Shown in pieces: positions 4,580 to 63,004 of a stretch of DNA of 64,000 nucleotides. Source of the DNA: Novosphingobium resinovorum (GTDB lineage: Bacteria; Pseudomonadota; Alphaproteobacteria; Sphingomonadales; Sphingomonadaceae); contig NZ_CP017078.1 in NCBI RefSeq assembly GCF_001742225.1, positions 290,887 to 354,886 of the forward strand, in the 5' to 3' direction. The first letter of the stretch is position 1. Every line of letters starts with the position of its first letter. Below the pieces are notes generated by a model, which worked only from the letters and a program-made list of their open reading frames with translations, had not been told where the DNA came from and made no database searches. Made by a program: the position numbers and the translations under genes.

Positions 4580-5440
4580 TTAGGCGGACATCAACGCCGG
4601 CTTCGGCGTAATTGTCACAGTCGTCGCGGTGGTATTCCGGCCCTTGCCCGCGACTGTCGCACTGGATGCAGTATCGCCCATAATGATGTGAAAGTCGGGG
4701 ATGGCATTTGCGTCGGTAATGCCCTTCATTACGTGCCGGAAGTGCTTCAAGGAATTTTGGTAGCCGAGTTGGAGCCGCAAATCGTCTAGCCCGACTTGGA
4801 CTGCACCACCCTTGCAGGTCGAAAGCGCGACCTCATAAAGCCGGCGCTCGACAGGGCCGAGCTGGAAATAGGAGGGCGAATATTCCAGCACGCGACGATC
4901 GCGCAGGATCGCACGGTAAAGCCAGTCGCACAGGCGAACCTTGACGCCCTTCAATCGCTTATCGCCGTTTTTGCTCTTGGTGTAGTGGAGCTGCGCTTCC
5001 GACAACCAAGAGAAGAAGCCAGCCTGGCCCTCGCCACCCGCTTCGATGTTGGTCTTGATCTGCGTGCCCTGGAGTCGTTCCAGCGCATCGGACAGTCGCG
5101 AGTAGGAGCGCGCCGAGCCATTGACGCCGGTCACGCGGAAAAGATCGTGAGCGGTAAAATAGAAATCTTGGGCAACAGCCTCGCCGGCATCAAGTTTGGA
5201 GACCAGCAAGCTCGCTATATAGAGCAATACTTCCTTGTCGTAGATAGTAGCGACCCCGCGAGGGCCGGGACCGATCTCGATCGACACCGCGTCGGTCTTG
5301 TAGATCAGCGAACGCTTCCACGCCGTCTTGGACAAAGCGAAAAACGGATACGCCATCAACGACTGCTCGCCGCGGACCTCGGTCAGCAATGGGCTGTCGA
5401 GAATGAACAAGTCGCCTTGGCTCAGGTCACGCTCGGTCAT
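4580..5440 (-). CDS. repA: Replication initiator protein RepA
   Basis: The 286-residue protein resembles the RepA/RPA initiators of alphaproteobacterial iteron plasmids. Typical blocks are MAYPFFALSKTAWKRSLIYKT-type N-terminal residues, the middle segment ARSYSRLSDALERLQGT, and the C-terminal SYFQLGPVERRLYEVA and LQLGYQNSLKHFRHVM, which make a winged-helix arrangement. The start at 5440 (MTERDLSQGD) was chosen because upstream residues are translated iteron sequence. Three iterons (5456-5576) sit directly in front of the gene and five behind it. This fits RepA binding both its own promoter and the origin. Confidence 0.88.
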   Translation of the reverse strand: MTERDLSQGDLFILDSPLLTEVRGEQSLMAYPFFALSKTAWKRSLIYKTDAVSIEIGPGPRGVATIYDKEVLLYIASLLVSKLDAGEAVAQDFYFTAHDLFRVTGVNGSARSYSRLSDALERLQGTQIKTNIEAGGEGQAGFFSWLSEAQLHYTKSKNGDKRLKGVKVRLCDWLYRAILRDRRVLEYSPSYFQLGPVERRLYEVALSTCKGGAVQVGLDDLRLQLGYQNSLKHFRHVMKGITDANAIPDFHIIMGDTASSATVAGKGRNTTATTVTITPKPALMSA

Positions 5441-5619: not shown

Positions 5620-5739
5620 CGATCGATTTTGAAGCGGCACCATATGAGAATGTGTAGCAGCCGCGCAGCGCGTATCAAAACACTTTCTCGATTGTGTGCT
5701 GTCGTGATAGGCGCGAAGGATGAGTTTTGAGAACGATTC
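5620..5739. promoter_or_regulatory. Possible resolution site of the multimer resolvase
   Basis: The 120 bp before the resolvase contain related elements: ATTTTGA near 5627, TATCAAAAC...TGATA (outer arms TATCA/TGATA) and GAGTTTTGAGAAC just before the ATG. The arrangement resembles a three-subsite res region, but the arms are short, so the call is tentative. Confidence 0.3.
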
Positions 5740-6330
5740 ATGCTGATCGGCTATGCGCGCGTCTCGACGCCCGAACAGGATCTGACGCCCCAGCTCGACG
5801 CGCTGCGCGAAGCTGGGTGCGAGCGGACCTTCACCGACAAAGCGAGCGGCGCCAAGGCGGACCGCGCTGGTCTAGCCGAAGCTCTGTCGCACGCACGTGC
5901 CGGAGACGTGCTGGTGGTGTGGAAGCTCGATCGTCTCGGCCGAACGATGAAGGGGCTGATCGATCTGGCCGCGAACCTTGCTGATCGCGGCATCGGCTTC
6001 CGTTCGCTCACGGACGGCATCGACACTGGCGGCACCGCCGGCAAGCTCGTCTTTCACATCATGGCTGCGATGGCCGAAATGGAACGCGACCTCATCCGCG
6101 AGCGCACGACGGCTGCCTTGATCGTGGCGCGGCGCGAGGGAAGGGTAGGCGGCCGAAAGACGGTGATGACGCCCAAGCGGCTAGAGGCAGCTCGCAAGCT
6201 CTTGGCTTCGGGGATGACGGTGCGCGAGATCGCGCCGACGATCGGTGTATCGGTGCCGACGCTCTACCGCCATTTCCCGGCGCCGGTGCAGGAGGCCATC
6301 AGCGCGGAAGGGGAAGGCCCTGGCGCGTGA
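5740..6330 (+). CDS. Small serine resolvase (plasmid multimer resolution)
   Basis: The 196-residue serine recombinase has the nucleophile Ser9 in MLIGYARVSTPEQD. Conserved catalytic arginine segments are WKLDRLGRTMKGL (about 62-74) and AEMERDLIRERT (about 112-123). A C-terminal HTH, MTVREIAPTIGVSVPTLYRHF, lies near 160-180. It resembles Tn3/gamma-delta-type resolvases, and its place next to repA suggests it resolves plasmid dimers. Its TGA stop overlaps the GTG of the next small gene. It lacks the C-terminal extension of the other resolvase at 6733-7599 and is clearly a different gene. Confidence 0.85.
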   Translation: MLIGYARVSTPEQDLTPQLDALREAGCERTFTDKASGAKADRAGLAEALSHARAGDVLVVWKLDRLGRTMKGLIDLAANLADRGIGFRSLTDGIDTGGTAGKLVFHIMAAMAEMERDLIRERTTAALIVARREGRVGGRKTVMTPKRLEAARKLLASGMTVREIAPTIGVSVPTLYRHFPAPVQEAISAEGEGPGA

Positions 6331-6732: not shown

Positions 6733-7599
6733 CTACCAGGCTCGCTCTTGTCCTCCAATCTCGTAAACATCGGTCTCGATCGAGCACCTGTAGCTCTCTG
6801 CGATGTTGAACATCTCTGTCTGGAGAGATGCGATCTCATCATCGAGGCTGACGCCATCGGCACCCTGATCATAGGCGACGGTCAGCGTGTAATCGCAGTT
6901 CCCGGTCTTTTGCATCTGGTAATCCCGCTCCAGCATCGCCTCAATGCGCTCGCGAGCGGGCTTTCTGCCACGACCATGCTTGTTGAAGTTCTCGATGGTC
7001 AGATGCAGGGCGATGGTGACAGAAGGCGGCTTTTCCGGCAGCCCGATCCTTGAAGGAATGACGTCAAGCGCCCGATAGACGGTCATTCTTGAGATCTTGA
7101 GGTCGCGCGCGACGCTGGCCTTGCTCGCGCCGGCGGTGATCCGGCGTCGGATTTCATCGTCATCGATGTTTTTCTTCCGGCCTTTGTAGACGCCTTCGGC
7201 GCGCGCCGCCTCGATCCCGGCGCGCTGCCGGTCCTTGATGAACGTCAGTTCCATGTCCGCGACCATGCCCAGAATGGTGATCACCATCCGCCCCATGCTT
7301 CCGGCCGTCGTCACCTCCGGCTCAAGCACCCGCAATGAGGCTCCCTTCTGGTCGAGTTCATGAACCAGATTGAGAACATCGCGTGTGGAGCGACCGAGCC
7401 GATCGAGACGCAGGACGACGAGTTCGTCATCGGCGCGCAGGAACTGCATGATCGTCTCAAGCTCCGTGCGTCCAGTGCGCGATGCGCCCGAGCCTGTTTC
7501 GGAGCGGAGGATTTCACAGCCCGCTGCCTTCAACCGGGCAACCTGGATGTCGAGATCCTGGTCGATGGTGCTGACGCGGGCGTAGCCGACGCGGGTCAT
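6733..7599 (-). CDS. tnpR: Tn3-family resolvase with C-terminal extension
   Basis: The 288-residue serine recombinase begins MTRVGYARVSTIDQDLD (Ser10 nucleophile). It has LRLDRLGRSTRDVL, a MELTFIKDRQRAGIEAAR helix and a C-terminal HTH at about 155-180 (AGASKASVARDLKISRMTVYRAL). It then continues for about 100 residues beyond the usual end, with HGRGRKPARERIEAML and an acidic tail. Such extended resolvases occur in some Tn3 subgroups. The start at 7599 was preferred because upstream codons are in the res-like repeats. A tnpA 3' fragment follows upstream on the same strand. Confidence 0.8.
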   Translation of the reverse strand: MTRVGYARVSTIDQDLDIQVARLKAAGCEILRSETGSGASRTGRTELETIMQFLRADDELVVLRLDRLGRSTRDVLNLVHELDQKGASLRVLEPEVTTAGSMGRMVITILGMVADMELTFIKDRQRAGIEAARAEGVYKGRKKNIDDDEIRRRITAGASKASVARDLKISRMTVYRALDVIPSRIGLPEKPPSVTIALHLTIENFNKHGRGRKPARERIEAMLERDYQMQKTGNCDYTLTVAYDQGADGVSLDDEIASLQTEMFNIAESYRCSIETDVYEIGGQERAW

Positions 7600-7609
7600 G
7601 GGCAAATCC

Positions 7610-7712
7610 GTCACATTAGGGTGGCTTTGCCCTCGTACAGTAACATTGGTGACGGAACCACCCTTTTGTGACATGTCGTATATGTCACTTCCGATCGTCA
7701 CGTTCGGGTGCA
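7610..7712. promoter_or_regulatory. Tn3-type res site
   Basis: GTCACATTAGGGTGG (7610-7624) faces CCACCCTTTTGTGAC (7658-7672) with 13 of 15 positions paired. GTGACAT/ATGTCAC arms lie at 7668-7674 and 7682-7688, and a further GTCACGTTCGGGTG starts at 7697. These repeated GTCAC half-sites between tnpR and tnpA are what a multi-subsite resolution region looks like. Confidence 0.65.
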
Positions 7713-7741
7713 CCCAAATGGTGCGAGCGGAAAGGCCCCGG

Positions 7742-8547
7742 TCAGGCAGCAAGCCGCCCAAAATCGATCCGGCTATTCAGATCGAGGTCGAAGCGGCCAT
7801 AAGGATTGACGTGGCTGTAAATCAGCGGTGTGAGGCCGCGATAATCATCCGGCGTCATCCGGCCCGTCCATTTCGGTTCCACCAGCACGCTCTGAAGCAT
7901 TCGGGTGTTCACATAGACAAGCGACGCTTGCAGCAAATGTAGCGCCAGGACCGAGAGCTGCTGCTCATCGATGCGGTTAGTGGCGATCTCGCCGCCCTTG
8001 CCGAAGAAAACGAACCCATTGGCACTGTTCCAGTTTTCAACGACATTCAGGCCTTCATGAATTTCGCGGCGGAAGGACTCCTCGCGCAGATACCGGCACA
8101 GGAAGATCGTCTTGACCGCGCGGCCCAGCTCACTCAACGCCTTGTAGGTCGGGTGCATCACCTCGGAGCGGCTAAACCGGCGCAGGATCGCCTCCGGGTC
8201 GGCGGTTTTTGTCTGCATCGCGGCTGCATATTTGACCATCTCGTCATATTGCTGCTCGATCTCATCCCAGTTGATCGGACTGGAGAGGATCGGCTGCAAG
8301 TGGGGAAGCCGCGTTCGCATGCCGACATCGGGAAGAGCCAGCTTCTGGCGAGCGATCGCTTTCAGGCGGGGTGCAAGCTCAAATCCGAGAAGCCGGCAAA
8401 ATGCAAAGCCAACCGCGCTTTGGCCATGACTATCAACATATTGTCGCTGGATTTCCATGTCGGTGCAATGGCGCAGCACGCCCTCGATCATGGAGGCGAC
8501 CTCGGAGGAAGAGCAGCTGTCAACGGCGGAGCAAAAGTCGGCCATTC
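7742..8547 (-). pseudogene. tnpA: Tn3-family transposase, C-terminal fragment
   Basis: About 268 residues survive of a transposase that is normally near 1000. The remnant includes [26 protein letters not shown] and ends in the family-like [22 protein letters not shown]...[15 protein letters not shown]...[19 protein letters not shown]. Everything upstream is missing because the IS21-family element abuts at 8548. The missing N-terminal part is not found on the far side of that element. The unit (tnpR, res, tnpA fragment) cannot transpose by itself, although the res/resolvase pair may still recombine. Confidence 0.85.
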
Positions 8548-55317: not shown

Positions 55318-55593
55318 TCAGAGCTTGGGAATGTGATCGTAAAAATCCACCTGCATCTTCATCGGCCCTGTCGGCGTTACGAAATGCGGTTGCTGAGGGA
55401 GAATCAAGCCAGGCTGGTCAGGCGTCAGGACGATCTCCGAAGGTGGCTCGAGGTAGGTTAGCCGGAGTTCGCCCTCCAAAACCCGGATCACGCCCCAAAC
55501 ACCAGCCTTCGTGTCATGTCGCGCGCGCAAGGCAGCCGGCAGAGTGTCCTGGTTGAACACCGGCGTGGAACGGTAAGGCAAGATTTCAGCCAT
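55318..55593 (-). CDS. DUF1971 (TehB/YeaR-like) protein
   Basis: The 91-residue cupin-like protein has LPYRSTPVFNQDTLPAALRARHDTKAGVWGVIRVLEGELRL and VLTPDQPGLILPQQPHFVTP, the DUF1971/YeaR pattern. In E. coli, yeaR is induced by nitrate and NO. The pairing with hmp and a globin fits a nitrosative-stress operon. ATG 55593 lies inside the last codons of the globin frame, so the two overlap. Confidence 0.85.
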   Translation of the reverse strand: MAEILPYRSTPVFNQDTLPAALRARHDTKAGVWGVIRVLEGELRLTYLEPPSEIVLTPDQPGLILPQQPHFVTPTGPMKMQVDFYDHIPKL

Positions 55594-55954
55594 GGGTTTG
55601 CCCTGGTCGCTCGATGGCATCCTTACGTTCCGCGTTGGCGACCGATGCAGCACTCCGTTCCTCCAGTTGGAAGAACATCGCCAGTTGCAGGCTCTCGGCG
55701 ATGCGCCGCGCCTTCGCTTGTAGCGCCGCTGCCGCTTCGGGCGTCATCCTGTCATTGGTCGTTTGAACCCAGAGTGCGAGCCAGCGCTCGAACAGCGCGG
55801 GCGTTATCCTGGCCTTATGCTTCAAATGGGCCGGCACCGGTTGCCCCTTGTATCGGCCACTGGTGAGCATGACGGAGGACCAGAACGCAGTCAGCTTCCC
55901 AAGATGCTCCGGCCAGTCATCGATCGCATCGTTGAAAATCGGCCCAAGCGCGGG
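55586..55954 (-). pseudogene. Group III truncated haemoglobin, 5' end deleted
   Basis: The frame reads PALGPIFNDAIDDWPEHLGK, then LTAFWSSVMLTSGRYKGQPV and PAHLKHKARITPALFERWLALW (proximal His in HLKHKARI-type context). This matches group III trHb from about residue 35 to the end, about 122 residues. The first 30-35 residues are absent because the sequence meets the TGTCG end of the Tn402-like transposon at 55955. No start codon is in frame. The missing part is not found beyond the other transposon end. Confidence 0.75.
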
Positions 55955-55967
55955 TGTCGGACGCCAA

Positions 55968-56024
55968 AATAGAGCGCAATGGCGTGCAATGCGCTGTTAT
56001 TGAGCGCCACAATAGACTGCATTC
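55968..56024. repeat. AATAGA-type transposase boxes, left end
   Basis: Three related boxes: AATAGA-GCG-CAATG (55968-55981), inverted CAATAA-CAGCG-CATTG (55987-56002) and AATAGA-CTG-CATTC (56011-56024). Similar boxes occur near the right end. Multiple ordered transposase-binding sites in each end are usual for Tn402/Tn7/Mu relatives. Confidence 0.5.
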
Positions 56025-56054
56025 AAAGGGCGCAGCAGCGGCAGGCAGATCCGG

Positions 56055-57206
56055 TTACTGATCGGCGAACCGCTTGGCCAATCTGGCGCTTGCCCCACTT
56101 TTAGCGGCAAGCTTTGAGCCATACCGCAAGACGGTACGCGCATCGCGCCACCGGTAGGCCTGCATGATAGCTGGCAGTCCTTCTCCTGCCGCAAAATTGT
56201 CCTGGGCCACCCCGACCCGGATCGAATGTGACGAGACCGTGCTGAGCCAGCGGTCGCGTTCGGCTTCGCTCATTTCACCGAGCAGGCCCTTCTCCCAGGC
56301 GCGACGGATGAGCCGCCTGTAAATGAGTGTGATGCTGTTCGGGTGCAGGCGCTCGGTGCCGATGCTGTCGATCGAGCCGTCGAAGTGCGTCGTCACGCGG
56401 CGCAGCAGCGGACCCTTGTCCACCCTGCCCGCTTCACGCCAGCGGGCAATCGCCGCCATCGTCGCGGGAGAAAGATAAGCCTCGGCTCCGGCTTGCTTTC
56501 GGTCGGTCTTGCTTGAAGGGATGTGCAACAAACCGGCTCCGTCGCTGTCGGGCCCCTCGATATGCCCGACATCGATCGCGACCAGTTCCGAGCGCCGCGC
56601 GGCTGTATCGTAAGCGATGCGCAACATGGCCGCGTCGCGCATCCCCAATTCATCGCGGCGGCAGGCCTTGAGCACATGGGCCAGGCACACGCCAGAGGCG
56701 GGACTGTCGAGATCAGCGATGTCGCCCTTGAACCGGATGGCGCGCGCCTGCCTCTGGCGCACGCCGAGATGATTGCGCGCCGCCTTGCGCTCGAACTTGA
56801 CCAGCGCTGCGGCGGTCGGATCCGTCAACCCTGCCATGCGGTAGGCCCACCCGACATGGACGAGGTAGCGCTCGATCGTGGCCATGGCGCGGGTCTTTAC
56901 GGACGATGGATCGATCCCGGCAAGCGCACGGATCCAGGCGGCGACGTCGGCGGGTTCGGCCGCACCCGGTACAATCCGGCGTGAGTGGCACCACTGTCCC
57001 CACAAAGTCAGGTCCGAGCGGAACGCGCGCCGGGTATTGATCGACCAGCCCCGCATCGCGGCGTCGAGCAAGGCCTCGTCGATACCGCCACCCGGACGGG
57101 TTCCCGTCCCAATCAGGGCGCGGACATCGGCAACGAGATCGGCCGGCTCGACGCTCAGCGGCACGAGGGCGCTGCCTGCGGCGGGTCTGGGGTGCTTTTT
57201 CGGCAT
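56055..57206 (-). CDS. Tyrosine site-specific recombinase
   Basis: The 383-residue integrase-family protein has a SAM-like core-binding domain at about 50-150 (STKRAFRSDL-type helix NTRRAFRSDLTLWGQWC). The catalytic domain has Arg in LRIAYDTAARRSELVAIDV, the SSHSIRVGVAQDNFAAG box (His-x-x-Arg), and Tyr in RTVLRYGSKLAAKSG. It is divergent from the DUF1612-type gene across 116 bp that contain a GATAA-N7-TTATC core-like site. It lies inside the Tn402-like ends, so its likely job is resolving transposition cointegrates (inference). Confidence 0.88.
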   Translation of the reverse strand: MPKKHPRPAAGSALVPLSVEPADLVADVRALIGTGTRPGGGIDEALLDAAMRGWSINTRRAFRSDLTLWGQWCHSRRIVPGAAEPADVAAWIRALAGIDPSSVKTRAMATIERYLVHVGWAYRMAGLTDPTAAALVKFERKAARNHLGVRQRQARAIRFKGDIADLDSPASGVCLAHVLKACRRDELGMRDAAMLRIAYDTAARRSELVAIDVGHIEGPDSDGAGLLHIPSSKTDRKQAGAEAYLSPATMAAIARWREAGRVDKGPLLRRVTTHFDGSIDSIGTERLHPNSITLIYRRLIRRAWEKGLLGEMSEAERDRWLSTVSSHSIRVGVAQDNFAAGEGLPAIMQAYRWRDARTVLRYGSKLAAKSGASARLAKRFADQ

Positions 57207-57213
57207 GGGGACG

Positions 57214-57266
57214 ACGATAACCGGGCGTTTCGCTTATGTATAGCCTCACGATAAGCATCTATTATC
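57214..57266. promoter_or_regulatory. Candidate recombination/resolution site between int and the DUF1612 gene
   Basis: There are four half-sites: ACGATAA at 57214-57220, inverted TTATG at 57234-57238, ACGATAA at 57248-57254 and inverted TTATC at 57262-57266. The second pair makes a perfect GATAA-N7-TTATC inverted repeat, the geometry of a tyrosine-recombinase core with a 7-bp crossover region. Promoters of both genes must also lie here. Confidence 0.45.
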
Positions 57267-57322
57267 AACACTAGGACGTAGGGCTCGTGGACTGAAGAAC
57301 GGTTTCCGTCTAGTATCGCGTC

Positions 57323-58357
57323 ATGAACCGCCCTCCCATGCCGCTCAGCGCGATCGCCTGGACCCCTGACCTTGTGAGCGCACTCGCCGACGCCAGCAGC
57401 GCGATCGGGCGGCTTGATGCTAGGATTTCCGCCACTGCGCTCGCTCCTGCCTGGCACCTGCGCGCCAGCTGGACCGGCTACGCCAAAGCGCTCAGCCTGC
57501 AACATCTCGAAATTGAGGAAATCGATATTATTTCGCGGCAATGTGGCCTTCAGCTGGCCGGAAGGCCGCGTCTTGAAACGGCAGGGGCTCCATTTTCCGC
57601 GCTTGAACCCTGGCGGAACCGGCTCGCCGAGAAAGAGGGCAGGCACTGGCGCGAGGATCTGCCGTTCAGCTTCGATCTGCCCGCAGGGTGGGACGAAGCC
57701 CCTGCCCTCGCACGCGCGCTCGCGCTGCTCGATGACTGGGCACGGCGCGACCGCACGATCACGCCGTGGCTGGCGTTCCCGATGGTTCTGCGGCGCATGG
57801 GGTTAACGCAGCGCACCTTGCCCTGCCTCGTCATGGGCGATCCCGGACAGCGCTTTGTGCAGGGTGACCGCCCTGCCCTGCTCAAGCGGCTGCTGAAGCA
57901 GCTACGCCGCAGCGCCGAGGACGGTCTGACCCGGCTAGAACGGCTCGAAGATACCGTGCAGCGAGGCGCGGCGACAATCGCCGCGCAGCATCGTCCCGGC
58001 AAGCTTGCCGACCTTGGCCGGCTCGCCCTCACCCGTCCCTGCCTGGCCGCTCGCTCACTCGCTCCCGAGCTCGACCTCACCGTGTCGGGCGCAGGCAAGC
58101 TACTCGAGCGTGCGACCAGCCTCGGCCTGCTGGTCGAAATATCCGGGCGCGGAACCTGGCGCTCCTATGTCACCCCCGACATCGCCGTCTCGCTCGGCTT
58201 GGTCGCTCCGATGCGGGGACGCCCCCGTCTAGTGCCTGCCCCCTCACCAACGCTGGATTCGGTCCTTGCAGCGTTTGATGCCGAATTGGCCGAGTTCGAC
58301 ACTCGCATTGCGGGCCTTGGCGGGCCCGATCTCGCTGGTTCGACTATAAACAATTGA
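57323..58357 (+). CDS. DUF1612/RHE_PE00001-family HTH protein
   Basis: The 344-residue protein has the DUF1612 N-terminal part (DARISATALAPAWHLRASWTGYAKALSLQHLEIEEIDI). Its C-terminal HTH_13-like wing is GAGKLLERATSLGLLVEISGRGTWRSY (about 255-285), followed by an acidic tail. The family is common on rhizobial and sphingomonad plasmids with unknown function (recalled). It is divergent from the tyrosine recombinase inside the transposon, the layout of the TnpS-TnpT pair in Tn4651-type elements. An accessory role in resolution is therefore a reasonable hypothesis, without sequence proof. Confidence 0.72.
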   Translation: MNRPPMPLSAIAWTPDLVSALADASSAIGRLDARISATALAPAWHLRASWTGYAKALSLQHLEIEEIDIISRQCGLQLAGRPRLETAGAPFSALEPWRNRLAEKEGRHWREDLPFSFDLPAGWDEAPALARALALLDDWARRDRTITPWLAFPMVLRRMGLTQRTLPCLVMGDPGQRFVQGDRPALLKRLLKQLRRSAEDGLTRLERLEDTVQRGAATIAAQHRPGKLADLGRLALTRPCLAARSLAPELDLTVSGAGKLLERATSLGLLVEISGRGTWRSYVTPDIAVSLGLVAPMRGRPRLVPAPSPTLDSVLAAFDAELAEFDTRIAGLGGPDLAGSTINN

Positions 58358-58524
58358 TATAGCTTGGCAATTATGAGGCCGCCGGAAACGCCCCTTGCAG
58401 CGCGATAACCGGCCTCGGGCTGCCCGGAGTATGCAAATGCCGTAAATGCGCTCCACGAGCTTCTCAGGGCAGATTTCGACATGATCGCCCCTTCGTCCAC
58501 CAAGGCGGCCCCGGATTGGCACCC

Positions 58525-59481
58525 TCACGAGGGAAATCGGCCAAATTGGGCTTCAACTTGAGTCTGGGCATCGCGGCGCACCCGCAGATGGGCATACGCG
58601 AGCACGAGGTCGAGCACGCCAGCGTCATGACTACCCGGCCGTAGACTGCCCTTGCTGATGCGCCAGCGACGCGGTGGCAGTTTCGGCGGCTGCAGTGTCA
58701 TCACCTCTCGCCCTGGACGCCCGGGCAATTCCAGCGCCACCAATCGCTCGAATCCCCACGTCGCCTTGCCCACCCGGCTGTGCGCCAGTGCCAGCATCGC
58801 GATCCGATCGTGTGCGAAGTGAAACAGGTTCGCCTGAAAGCGATCCACATAGGCTTTCTTCTCCCCCTTGAACCGCTCGCGGCTTGCCCGCACGAGTGTG
58901 TCGACGCCCTCGGCGTTCCATTCGACCAAGCGCGGATGAGCCCCGAGCTTCCAGCGCAAACTCTCTGCGCGGGCCACCGCCCCGCTCAGCCACGAACCGA
59001 CAGCCTGCTCCGACATCGCTCCATCCGCCACCGGCAGTGCACAGAGCGGGAGAGCGTGCACTTGGCACCGCCAGCTCATGCGCAAGATCCATTCCTTGCG
59101 GATGATTGGGGCCCGGCCATCCCGCAGGGCCTGCTGCCAGCAGAGCGGACAGACATATCGGCGCTGGCGGCGCGGCAGAACCACCGAAGCCTCGACGTTG
59201 AGGAAGGTTCCTTCGATCTGTTGGACCTCAATCTCAACCGCCCAGGCCAACTGACCAATCACTTGATACACGGCGAAGTACTGCTCATTGGACAAGCCGC
59301 ATGTGCCGCGGGCCAGATCCAGGCTGGCAATCGCCGCTTCAAGACCAAGGTGCCGAAACAGCGCGGGTCGCGTGGTTTCGTGCGCGGCCGCAACCCGATC
59401 GATCCAGGAATCAAAGCACTCGTCGGCCTGCGGGCGGACCCGGAACGCCAGCGGCTGCGGCTCCAACGCCAGTACGGTCAT
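58525..59481 (-). CDS. tniQ: TniQ-family transposition protein
   Basis: The 318-residue protein begins RVRPQADECFDSWIDRVAAAHE, the TniQ start. The zinc-ribbon pair is CPLC (YVCPLCWQQALRDGRAP) and WRCQVHALPLCALP, typical of TniQ/TnsD proteins that guide target choice. Its ATG overlaps the tniB stop (ATGA). It is the last gene of the tniA-tniB-tniQ operon and converges on the DUF1612-type gene. No CRISPR effector is near, so this is not an RNA-guided system. Confidence 0.88.
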   Translation of the reverse strand: MTVLALEPQPLAFRVRPQADECFDSWIDRVAAAHETTRPALFRHLGLEAAIASLDLARGTCGLSNEQYFAVYQVIGQLAWAVEIEVQQIEGTFLNVEASVVLPRRQRRYVCPLCWQQALRDGRAPIIRKEWILRMSWRCQVHALPLCALPVADGAMSEQAVGSWLSGAVARAESLRWKLGAHPRLVEWNAEGVDTLVRASRERFKGEKKAYVDRFQANLFHFAHDRIAMLALAHSRVGKATWGFERLVALELPGRPGREVMTLQPPKLPPRRWRISKGSLRPGSHDAGVLDLVLAYAHLRVRRDAQTQVEAQFGRFPS

Positions 59482-60317
59482 CGCGCCGCATAGTTCGGCA
59501 GCAACACCGCCGCCTCGCGAATATCCGCGAATTCCACGCGCGCTCTGCCATGTTGATACGCCACTTTCTGGCCCCAGTGCAGCAGGCGCTTGAAGTTTCC
59601 GGTCACCCCAAGGCTTTGCTCCCAGAGAAAACCGGCGACCTCCGGCTCGGCAAGGCGATCCGGCTCGATCAGTCCCATCCCCTGCCCGAGTACCCGAATG
59701 AGACGTTGCGTCGGCGCTCCCTGTGGCCAGGGCTTAAGTCGCAAGATGATCGAGCGATAGGCAAGCTCGACGTCCTCGGTAAAGATATCGGCGGCGACGT
59801 CGAGTCCTGCGACCACCATCGGTACATTGCCCTCGCTCATTAGGAAGCGGAACGCATCAAGCGTATCGCGGCGCGCTCTCCCGCTGGCGGTGAGGATCGC
59901 ATGAACATTGTCGATCCCGATGAGCCGGGTGTGTTGACGCCGCAAGAGTTCGACGACCTTAAGGTCTGCAATGCGGTGGGTCTTTCCGGTGATCGGCCAG
60001 CCTTGCTTCCACAGCAGGGTCAGGTTGATCTTGAGGGCGGTCGAACCCGAAGGGATGACGGTTCGCAGCATCGGTTGATAGCGGGCATCATCAATGCTGA
60101 GCGGCTCGGGAAAATCGTGGGCAATCCGGCGCTGGGCCTCGCGCAGAATCGAGGTTTTGCCCATGCCCGACTGCCCGACCAATACCACACAGGTCGGCCG
60201 TTCGTCGGGTTCGTCATGGGCAAGTTCGACCAGAGTTTCGACATGCTGGCGGGCTTCATCGAAATCGATCCAGAAGGCCTGCGACAGCGCCGAGCCGCCA
60301 GACATAGGGGCAGTCAT
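59478..60317 (-). CDS. tniB: TniB-family AAA+ ATPase
   Basis: The 279-residue AAA+ regulator has Walker A VVLVGQSGMGKTS (about 47-59), Walker B HTRLIGIDNVHAIL, sensor-like PMVVAGLDVAADIF and a C-terminal GVTGNFKRLLHWGQ. It is the counterpart of TnsC/MuB and activates TniA at the target. ATG 60317 overlaps the tniA stop. ATG 60335 would add six residues (MAETDR). Complete. Confidence 0.92.
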   Translation of the reverse strand: MTAPMSGGSALSQAFWIDFDEARQHVETLVELAHDEPDERPTCVVLVGQSGMGKTSILREAQRRIAHDFPEPLSIDDARYQPMLRTVIPSGSTALKINLTLLWKQGWPITGKTHRIADLKVVELLRRQHTRLIGIDNVHAILTASGRARRDTLDAFRFLMSEGNVPMVVAGLDVAADIFTEDVELAYRSIILRLKPWPQGAPTQRLIRVLGQGMGLIEPDRLAEPEVAGFLWEQSLGVTGNFKRLLHWGQKVAYQHGRARVEFADIREAAVLLPNYAAR

Positions 60318-61984
60318 TCGATCCGTTTCAGCCATGTATCTTCCCCCAACTCCGCCACGGGAAGCCAATTCGACGCGGGTTCTGCCGTGGCTCGCGCCGG
60401 TGCCCGTGTATGGGATGTTCCCTCGCGCTCCGCTCGTTTTCGGGCCTCACGGGCGCGCCGGGTCTTCGCAGTTGCAGAGAGAACATCGCTGCGATTGGCA
60501 TGGATCAGGCGCGCGGCTTCGGCGCGCGCGCCGTTATCCTGATAGGCCCTGCCGGCCCGGAACCGTTCGTTCCGCGCCGCTTCCCATTCCGCCAGGCTGA
60601 CATCGGGATAATGCCCGACAACCGCTGCTGAGACGAAGCCACCCTCCACTTCCGGATAGACCTCCTGGATGGTGCGCTCGTCGAAGTGAACCATGACTTT
60701 CTGGCCGATCCGCGATGCAAGGCTGGTGTGCCAGTACCGACGATAGCCAATCTGGATTCCGTAGGCCTTCACCGTTCGCTCAACCCATGGCAGGAAACGG
60801 CGGACGAGAGCCGTTTCGTCGAGGCCGAGCGGAACCAAAGGCCCTTGGCTCCTCGCCTCCTCGGCCCAAGCCTGCGCCGGCGCACAGCCGCCCAAGCCGG
60901 CGTGCGGCTCGGCGTGATAGAGACAAATTGCCCGAACAAACCAGCGTTCAAACTCATCGATGGTCATCGCAGCGGCCGCACCAGCGTCATAACCGTCGCG
61001 CTTGGTGGCGTTTGCTCCCGTCGCACCGGGCAACAAGCGCATCTTGGCCATCATCGTTCCAATCAGGCGCTCGATATGGCCACCGAAATGCGCGGGGCCA
61101 CGTGGCCTGACATCCGGATCGATGCCGTGGGAAAGGCACGCGGACCGGAAGGATTGTGCACGATGTGCTGCCGCATGGTCAGCGTGTAGCCGCTTGAATA
61201 GCCCATGCATTGGGTAGTCGACATCAAGCTGTAACGCCTGCAAAAGGCTATGCTTTGGCAGGATCGCATTGGCGATCGCACGCCCGCATCGAAATATCGA
61301 GGGATCCCCAAAGCTCACATAGAAGCCAAGGATACATCGGGTCCGCACTTCGATTAGCAAGGTCACCCAAGGGCGCCCCAGCTCTTTGCGCTGCACGCTG
61401 TCGACAAGGATTACATCGGCCCGCGTATGATCCATCTGAACGAGGTCCAGGAAGCCCCGGCTTAAATACTCACCCGCATGCGGCTCATGTGCACTGCGCG
61501 TCTTCGAGCCCATCATGGTGCGTGCCCGCACCGGGTCCGATATCGCCGCAATCGCCCGCTCAATGCTGCGTTCGCTTGGCACTTCACTGGCTTCAAAACG
61601 ATAATCGCCGTTGTCGGCGATTAGGAGTCCGCGAACCTGACGAGCAGTTTCCTTCATGCTCGCGCCGGCCTTGCGCAAGTGAATCTCGCCGATGAGCGTG
61701 TCGATCGCAGCCAGCACGGTTGGGCCACCACGTCGGCTTCCTGGTTTGGGTCCTTTGGGCAACGACGCCAACGATTCTGCGACGGGGTGATCTCGGAATC
61801 GCCGGGCGAGTTCGCGAATTCGTCGTTCCTTGAGTCCGGTTACGGTCGAAATTGCCACGACTGCCTGCGCCGTCAAAGGCGCATCAAGCGGAACGTACTG
61901 GCGAAACGCTGGATACAGCGCCGTGCCTGTTGCCAATGCAGCTTCTGAACGACGAGCCGAAGGCGGCGGCTTGCGTGCAATCAT
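60314..61984 (-). CDS. tniA: TniA-type Mu-like DDE transposase
   Basis: The 556-residue transposase has an N-terminal HTH (VTGLKERRIRELARRF) and the rve core. The catalytic Asp is in FLDLVQMDHTRADVILVD, the second Asp in RLHADHAAAHRAQS, and Glu in FGGHIERLIGTMMAKM. The C-terminal Mu-type beta-barrel follows (IGQKVMVHFDERTIQEVYPE). ATG 61984 was preferred because the upstream frame runs through AATAGA boxes. It is the first gene of the tni operon and reads inward from the right end. It appears intact. Confidence 0.92.
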   Translation of the reverse strand: MIARKPPPSARRSEAALATGTALYPAFRQYVPLDAPLTAQAVVAISTVTGLKERRIRELARRFRDHPVAESLASLPKGPKPGSRRGGPTVLAAIDTLIGEIHLRKAGASMKETARQVRGLLIADNGDYRFEASEVPSERSIERAIAAISDPVRARTMMGSKTRSAHEPHAGEYLSRGFLDLVQMDHTRADVILVDSVQRKELGRPWVTLLIEVRTRCILGFYVSFGDPSIFRCGRAIANAILPKHSLLQALQLDVDYPMHGLFKRLHADHAAAHRAQSFRSACLSHGIDPDVRPRGPAHFGGHIERLIGTMMAKMRLLPGATGANATKRDGYDAGAAAAMTIDEFERWFVRAICLYHAEPHAGLGGCAPAQAWAEEARSQGPLVPLGLDETALVRRFLPWVERTVKAYGIQIGYRRYWHTSLASRIGQKVMVHFDERTIQEVYPEVEGGFVSAAVVGHYPDVSLAEWEAARNERFRAGRAYQDNGARAEAARLIHANRSDVLSATAKTRRAREARKRAEREGTSHTRAPARATAEPASNWLPVAELGEDTWLKRIE

Positions 61985-62014
61985 GGTGCTGAATTCCACC
62001 AGAAATTTCACGCT

Positions 62015-62057
62015 CAATGTCATCTATTATGGCACAGTGCGCAAATAGATTCGCACG
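62015..62057. repeat. AATAGA-type boxes and palindrome before tniA (right end)
   Basis: Inverted AATAGA-TGA-CATTG (62015-62028, minus strand) and direct AATAGA-TTCG-CACG (62044-62057) form, with their flanks, an ATCTATT...AATAGAT palindrome (62022-62050). They match the left-end boxes and overlap the expected tniA promoter, so TniA may bind and autoregulate here. Confidence 0.5.
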
Positions 62058-62144
62058 TGCGTCATTGAATGCTGCGATACCTTTGATGTATCTGGTTGTT
62101 TTTACGTAATTTATGCTGCTTGCAGCCTTCTTTGGCCGGCGACA

Positions 62145-63004
62145 GCAGCACTGTCGGCTATCGTCCCAAAAGATGGTAATACCTGTCGGCCTGGCTTCCC
62201 CACTGGCCCGAGTATGGCGCCGGCCCCCGCTGCACGAAGGCGCAGCTTTGGCAGAAGCTGAACGTCGCGCCACGACCCGTCCCATGAAAGATCTGCGTTA
62301 GCTCGGGACTACATTCGGCGAGGCACAGCGCGGCGTGATCACGCAGGCATCGTTTCGGCCATTGCCCGCCCCACGCATGAAACCTCTGGCGCAACACGGA
62401 AGGGTTTTACCTGTTGCGCAGGATGCTCGACCGTTACGCCCGCTGCAGGCTTAGAATGCCGGAACCAACATCAGGCTGCTGTGCGGGCTCTAGAGAGCAG
62501 TTCGAATGGGATAAGCGGTACCCCCCGATGAACTTCAGTCGGATCCCGTGAGCATCAGAGCCAAATCATTCGTTCCGAAGTCTGACCGTTGCGGTTGGCC
62601 TTTATCCTCCATGGCTGAGGCCCGAGCAATGCATGCATTTGCTCTCCCGTTCAAAGGGCGCGCGCGAAGGAAATCTGCTATTCGGGTGATCTTGGATCTT
62701 GTCCGGGTTCCGACACGATTTTGGCACCTTTTTGCCTAACCCGCACCTTCCCTGTGAAGCCCCCTGGCGGCCATTTGGGTGACTTGATGGCCCCGAGTTA
62801 CCCGTTACACCGCAAGGCACTCAGAGGGCTCCTGAGGGCAAAATAGAGCTGTTTCTCTATTTGTTCCACCACCCCAACGTCAGGAGGCCCTGTCATCGAC
62901 CAAAGCGGCAGGTGTTGTTCGTCAGTCGGCGCACTCGAGCTGGCTGGCGTAAAGCCCCATACGCGCAGCCGCCTTGCCCGCAATGTCGATCGTGCAAAAG
63001 TTGC
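62145..63004. other. Region right of the transposon, no firm gene
   Basis: A 79-codon minus-strand frame (GTG 62397 to 62158) has a CxxC and several other cysteines but no known motif. It ends just outside the transposon end and is a weak candidate. A perfect hairpin AAATAGAG-N6-CTCTATTT lies at 62841-62862. The rest shows nothing recognisable. Confidence 0.3.

Follow-up and report, generated by a model that had tools for sequence, protein, structure and literature searches.

In Tn5053-type transposons, among the closest described systems, the end that lies opposite tniA, termed IRo, is reported to be the one closest to the resolvase of the target (PMC7765201). The clade of Tn7-like elements that contains Tn5053 (clade 3) includes members with serine or tyrosine resolvases, so that a tyrosine resolvase in such an element is already known, as far as the corresponding portion of that source goes (PMC8649781). 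Here we describe an element of 6190 bp, at positions 55955–62144 of a 64,000-nucleotide stretch of the Novosphingobium resinovorum contig NZ_CP017078.1 (hereafter the window), in which a tyrosine recombinase gene (int), a partner gene that we call X, and a dif-like core site occupy the place of the tniR–res module of Tn5053 and Tn402. We consider it rather likely that this is a sphingomonad tni transposon with its own tyrosine recombinase module, which would resolve at the core and insert preferentially into X genes.

An earlier note on this DNA, made from the letters alone, had claimed a discrete unit of the Tn402/Tn5053 group that lacks a serine resolvase inside its ends, and our searches agreed on each of these points. 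A megablast search with 55900–62300 against plasmids returned two near full-length places, both on Sphingobium plasmids: L003, with edges at window positions 55951–62144 and 99.5% identity, and L004, with edges at 55955–62149 and 95.0% identity. A further copy in Novosphingobium resinovorum (L125) was 99.98% identical across the element, and near-complete copies were present in other sphingomonads. The outer ends read TGTCGGACGCCAAA and, as the reverse complement, TGTCGCCGGCCAAA, and are imperfect repeats of each other that agree at 17 of their first 25 positions. On the int side, the terminal inverted repeat TGTCGGACGCCAAAATAGAGCGCAA (55955–55979, forward strand) is the counterpart of the IRo end, and its edge is common to the copies L003, L004, L005, and L125. 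The TniA-side repeat, TGTCGCCGGCCAAAGAAGGCTGCAA on the reverse strand (62120–62144), corresponds in relatives collected via TniA to an end of the TGTC type with a CAAA-type block, which keeps a constant spacing upstream of tniA of either 120–121 bp (window type) or 161–166 bp.

Between these TGTC ends lie tniQ (58525–59481; PF06527, 46.3 bits), tniB, encoding an AAA+ ATPase (59478–60368; PF05621, 87.9 bits), and the transposase gene tniA (60314–62023; PF09299, 37.4 bits), all on the reverse strand, the combination by which Tn402/Tn5053 transposons are recognized. The TniQ, TniB, Mu-transpos_C, and Phage_integrase matches passed the Pfam cutoffs. Identity to the proteins of R751 (Tn402) was 34% over 381 aa for TniA, 26% over 245 aa for TniB, and 22% over 155 aa for TniQ, values that indicate a distant relationship. 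Among the 127 open reading frames (ORFs) of the element, a profile built from seven serine recombinase sequences gave no significant match (best E 1.5), a search that was aimed at the gene while the res site itself was not searched for. Two serine recombinase ORFs occur elsewhere in the window, far from the element (5731–6327 and 6736–7776).

The 5-bp duplications that the earlier note expected at conserved ends were found in relatives. Among 36 elements for which 6.2 kb or more of sequence was available, near-identical copies included, five had an exact 5-bp duplication at the canonical second end (L003, L007, L129, L142, and L149), compared to none of 1731 permuted 5-mer controls. The duplication in L003 is CCGGC, and the second end of L007, L142, and L149 reads CACA instead of GACA. 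Duplication candidates in L114 and L157 lay away from the canonical ends and were not counted.

The product of int (56055–57206, reverse strand; 383 aa) is a Cre-like tyrosine recombinase (Pfam PF00589), and Cre was the closest solved structure in a profile search of the PDB (3.2e-32). Tyrosine recombinases rely on the catalytic residues R-K-H-R-(H/W)-Y, and the equivalents in int (R204, K233, H327, R330, W353, and Y362) were invariant in all 12 aligned sequences. In the intergenic region between int and X we predict a core recombination site, CCTCACGATAA-GCATCTA-TTATCAACACT (57244–57272, forward strand), an 11-7-11 inverted repeat, the prediction being based on conservation in int–X pairs and elements and on a breakpoint in its spacer. 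Its ATAA-N7-TTAT pattern falls within the ATAA-N6/7-TTAT layout and resembles dif and lox, but unlike Cre/lox and Xer/dif, the system described here includes the partner protein X, and the site lies between two genes.

Given a limit of less than 300 bp between the two genes, the core was present in 24 of 25 tyrosine int–X pairs, 4 in transposons and 21 elsewhere, and the exception had a fragmented int; L012, L088, L108–L111, and the L003 copy of the window pair were left out of this comparison. Over the 22 sequences that remained after L087 and L101 were removed as near-duplicates, the outer seven arm positions were Watson–Crick paired in 102 of 154 cells, while none of 5000 shuffles was as high (mean 80.6) and slid versions of the site gave 26–57. 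The motif was also found in 35 of 40 elements, chosen by length from 61 and including near-identical copies, compared to one of 800 shuffled stretches. Palindrome tests on single sequences were often not significant, and this included the core of the window itself. Two modules with a serine recombinase beside X, L053 and L015, still hold a core-type motif, the latter recognized by eye in the sequence. Closer to X, a partial inverted repeat of promoter or operator type, GTGGACTGAA...TTTCCGTCTAGTAT (57287–57316, forward strand), was read by eye across intergenic sequences upstream of X and could be an accessory site bound by X.

A trace of recombination at the predicted core was seen in the comparison of the window copy with L004. 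The best breakpoint fell at element position 4885, within the core spacer (4884–4890; log-likelihood ratio (LLR) 70.3). The two copies diverge by 6.3% towards X and by 0.1% towards int, where one mismatch was counted in 1300 positions past the spacer. We therefore read this pair, from its divergence pattern, as the product of natural recombination at a point within the spacer of the core. In L158/L161, the switch lay 17 bp beyond the core (LLR 30.0). A plot had suggested that L126–L128 were core recombinants as well, but their best breakpoints lay elsewhere, and only the window/L004 case is claimed firmly. In L127 (10183–10868), genes for a FitA-like antitoxin and a PIN-domain toxin lie between the core and int, with a similar stretch in L128; toxin–antitoxin pairs are similarly described beside Tn3 resolvases in the part of that work considered here (PMC7157771).

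The partner gene X (57323–58357, forward strand) encodes 344 aa with a predicted Fic-like fold that lacks the Fic motif and a C-terminal winged helix (AlphaFold2 and Foldseek), and we propose that it may act as a recombination accessory factor. The model reached a predicted local distance difference test (pLDDT) score of 91.2 and a predicted template modeling (pTM) score of 0.83, and this predicted structure matched Fic proteins in Foldseek with E 6.4e-6 and a template modeling (TM) score of 0.52 to 3zcn. The Fic active-site motif, searched in the form printed in the PMC2686095 abstract, was found in none of 56 X relatives. The identity of this protein as DUF1612/HTH_13, proposed earlier, could not be upheld: curated cutoffs were not reached for HTH_13 (17.9 bits, cutoff 26.1) or for NF040876 RHE_PE00001_fam (42 bits, cutoff 250), and Pfam gave no match to DUF1612 up to E 0.1. 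X thus appears from these comparisons to be only a distant relation of DUF1612, the N-terminal part of which is described as remotely Fic-like in the portion of the literature consulted (PMC2686095). X proteins fall into groups A, B, and C, whose mutual alignment is mainly in the C-terminal part.

The earlier note had also likened the divergent pair to the TnpS/TnpT-rst module of Tn4651, a comparison that stands in part. As in Tn4651, a tyrosine recombinase gene diverges from a gene for a helper, here a helix-turn-helix protein, with a site between them, and int shows distant homology to the divergent integrase of pWW0, our candidate TnpS (hhalign E 7.9e-24). Unlike in Tn4651, X is not homologous to the candidate TnpT of pWW0, which carries KfrA_N; a TnpT homology for X was tried and rejected (hhalign E 0.37), and the transposase family is a different one. 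Both candidates were assigned by position and divergent layout, as the pWW0 record gives no such names. The hybrid lineage with a Tn4651-type Tn3 module that the note derived from this likeness found no sign in our data; instead, window-type int groups with plasmid modules beside parAB/repA.

These plasmid modules became apparent when X genes away from tni were surveyed. Of 32 such rows, 31 had par or rep genes no more than 4.5 kb away, and a recombinase divergent from X was present in 26 (23 tyrosine and 3 serine), with none in the other six. The survey covered 10 of 49 plasmid records with an X match and 27 X places from the family search, with 11 tni-adjacent rows set aside, X matches shorter than about 200 residues not listed, and the near-duplicate records L087/L010 and L092/L014 included. 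In an int tree of 61 rows, with a midpoint root for drawing only and long-branch joins flagged, window-type ints fell inside a 29-row group (support 100/97) that includes 15 plasmid-backbone rows, and were closest to plasmid rows (99/96). Given this position inside a plasmid-containing clade, the window-type module looks captured from a plasmid, probably a sphingomonad plasmid with a module linked to parAB/repA. On the other hand, the ints of L007, L049, and L051 type formed a group of their own (100/99) with 17 transposon rows, 4 unassigned rows, and no plasmid-backbone row, indicating that a module proper to transposons exists. On plasmid pSWIT02 (L014, 5832–8047), two divergent X genes occur with no recombinase between them and are flanked by two parB-like genes.

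The near-constant company of par and rep genes could mean that int and X are plasmid-maintenance cargo, acting as a multimer resolution or stabilizer system with no role in transposition, while host or target recombinases resolve cointegrates. We regard this as unlikely, although it is among the better surviving alternatives. Sister elements that were read far enough keep X, and mostly int, inside their ends at the place of tniR in Tn402, transposon-borne ints include the clade without plasmid-backbone rows, and the core is retained in most elements. The pairing of a recombinase and a helix-turn-helix partner as part of the tni element, as first suggested from the window sequence, was conserved as a unit across relatives; elements ending between tniQ and the X gene were looked for and none was seen, and wherever the contig extended far enough past tniQ, X stood head-on to it. 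In L053, the int position is taken by a serine recombinase that still adjoins X and may belong to the element itself or to the target plasmid.

X genes were also found outside the elements, at their borders. An X gene lay beside the TniA end at 41 of 50 distinct TniA-side junctions and was head-on in all 41. The 61 elements gave 56 distinct TniA-side junctions, of which 50 had at least 60 bp of flank and 6 were left out; given that L085 and L107 had been found via an X search, the count becomes 40 of 49 once this bias is removed (the flank of L085 was too short in any case). In 22 of the 41, similarity to X started no more than 10 bp from the junction, and 20 of these 22 lay at estimated X codons 52–198. 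An X gene is ~1 kb long, compared to 66,704 to 1,247,975 bases for the plasmid records, so that few chance insertions would be expected there, on a comparison of size only. In L003, L007, and L142, an exact duplication was accompanied by pieces of a single X gene to either side of the element, and in L003 and L007 removal of the element at one duplication copy restored an uninterrupted X frame. A recombinase was present beyond the non-TniA end in L003, L125, L131, L138, L142, and L143, the same polarity towards the target recombinase as described, in the part of the source consulted, for Tn5053-type elements (PMC7765201). The family thus seems, from these junctions, to hunt X/recombinase modules as Tn5053 hunts res.

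Two further arrangements of tni elements and X modules were observed. In L050 (6171–15012), a tni element sits in the X gene of a second tni element, which itself sits in a plasmid X gene. In L117 and L119, members of a second tni group (TniA ~35%) have their TniA end ~20–40 bp on the int side of a plasmid-type core, with opposite polarity; their position was judged through L090, and this group was left out of the 50 junctions.

The concentration of the near junctions in one part of X could alternatively reflect recognition of DNA within the X coding sequence, with bound proteins playing no role. This explanation fits the 20 junctions at codons 52–198, but we find it improbable to much the same degree as the cargo explanation. 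The mainly C-terminal alignment of groups A, B, and C makes a common word near those codons unlikely (such a word was not searched for), and the insertion codons are scattered. Moreover, L125 lies near a serine recombinase gene, whose ORF begins ~300 bp beyond its int end, with no X found, and one L127 copy, 589 bp from X, is by its coordinates in int.

Several observations weigh against preferential insertion into X genes and resolution at the core. Of the 41 X-bearing junctions, 17 had a diverged X recognized only 64–436 bp away, and in two others X lay at 589 and 883 bp. No X was found beside nine of the 50 junctions (window, L124, L125, L129, L153, L159, L164, L166, and L168), among which L153 and L164 have less than 270 bp of flank. 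Permissive settings revealed no X remnant at the TniA-side flank of the window copy, a locus common to L124 and L125, and the target of L129, which has a duplication, is something other than an X gene. All 50 junctions differ in sequence, but some possibly represent one old insertion in diverged plasmids. The core motif was not found in 5 of 40 elements, and the shuffle test of the core ignores the relatedness of the sequences. Several other breakpoints in the family lay far from the core (for example, 1226, 2115, 3081, 3488, 3954, 4286, and 4630), indicating that general recombination is also at work and that not all exchange is site-specific. Finally, the window copy has no 5-bp duplication (flanks GCGGG and GCAGC), and neither have 31 of the 36 elements. 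That the clustering stems from recombination between X–int modules, with core crossovers joining halves, and not from transposition into X would fit these missing duplications, the swapping of halves at the core, and the X pieces from different groups on the two sides of L131, L138, and L143, but we consider it very improbable, since L003, L007, and L142 combine exact duplications with one X gene split across both sides, and a core crossover could not produce a TniA-end junction inside X.

In the transposition mechanism that we favor, TniA, TniB, and TniQ would make a cointegrate by replicative tni transposition, and int would separate it by recombination between the two copies of the core (57244–57272), which resembles dif and lox. 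X, as a Fic-like scaffold with a winged helix, may be bound beside the core as an accessory factor and regulator. The same type of module, carried by sphingomonad plasmids beside parAB/repA, would probably serve multimer resolution there. Insertion would occur preferentially into X genes of plasmid or sister-transposon modules in such an orientation that the non-TniA end faces the recombinase of the target, possibly through recognition of X or of recombinase complexes by the Tni proteins, so that the res-site-hunting rule would have been carried over to tyrosine recombinase/X modules. A more far-reaching idea, which we put forward tentatively and stop just short of favoring, is that these transposons sense tyrosine recombinase modules via a catalytically dead, Fic-fold, DNA-binding X that could be at once helper, beacon, and part of a partition locus, with the halves of elements being reassorted at the core.

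The surroundings of the window copy add some detail on its insertion site. Near the int end, a subterminal repeat of the end sequence (55998–56021, forward strand; direct repeat family D1, 71% to 55948–55978) may be a second TniA-binding site. The int-end flank outside the element (55586–55954, reverse strand) is a truncated gene for a group III truncated haemoglobin, 97% identical to L006 over query bases 1–65, in which the intact form is annotated. This gene, cut by the int end of the element, adjoins a DUF1971 gene and a second gene that we named flavohaemoglobin-like from our own sequence reading only, and a different contig of this genome contains a 53-bp match of 94% to the flank. The TniA-side flank (62145–62413) belongs to a locus used at three positions (blastn of flanks, 90–91%): three copies were inserted there at positions within 269 bp, those of the window, L125 (198 bp away), and L124 (269 bp away).

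Taken as a whole, the element is a variant of the Tn402/Tn5053 kind and extends the known family of site-hunting transposons. Like Tn5053 and Tn402, it has tniABQ, TGTC ends, a 5-bp duplication in some copies with duplications often missing, and a strong preference for recombinase modules, with the non-TniA end nearest the target recombinase where readable. It differs in that a tyrosine recombinase, X, and a dif-like core replace tniR–res, insertions mostly target X genes next to a tyrosine, sometimes a serine, recombinase, and the Tni proteins are 22–34% identical over the aligned parts. The tyrosine resolvase is shared with Tn7-like clade 3, while X, the core, the plasmid module, and the targeting are not described in the part of that account considered here (PMC8649781). 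What looks new is the X/core module, its presence also in, or origin from, plasmid partition loci, and the insertion into X genes; we found no prior report of the module, the partition-locus sharing, or the X targeting in the openly licensed literature.

To our knowledge, the way in which Tn5053/Tn402-type elements locate res sites is incompletely understood. With a sister family that locates modules of another recombinase class, with an accessory protein and a location in common, it would become possible to test what Tni proteins sense. The proposed accessory function would also give the Fic-like/winged-helix family of X a first concrete role to test, a family whose distant relative RHE_PE00001 has been proposed as essential in Rhizobium etli, according to the portion of that study consulted (PMC9022086). 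For the sphingomonads, these results would link plasmid maintenance modules to transposon traffic.

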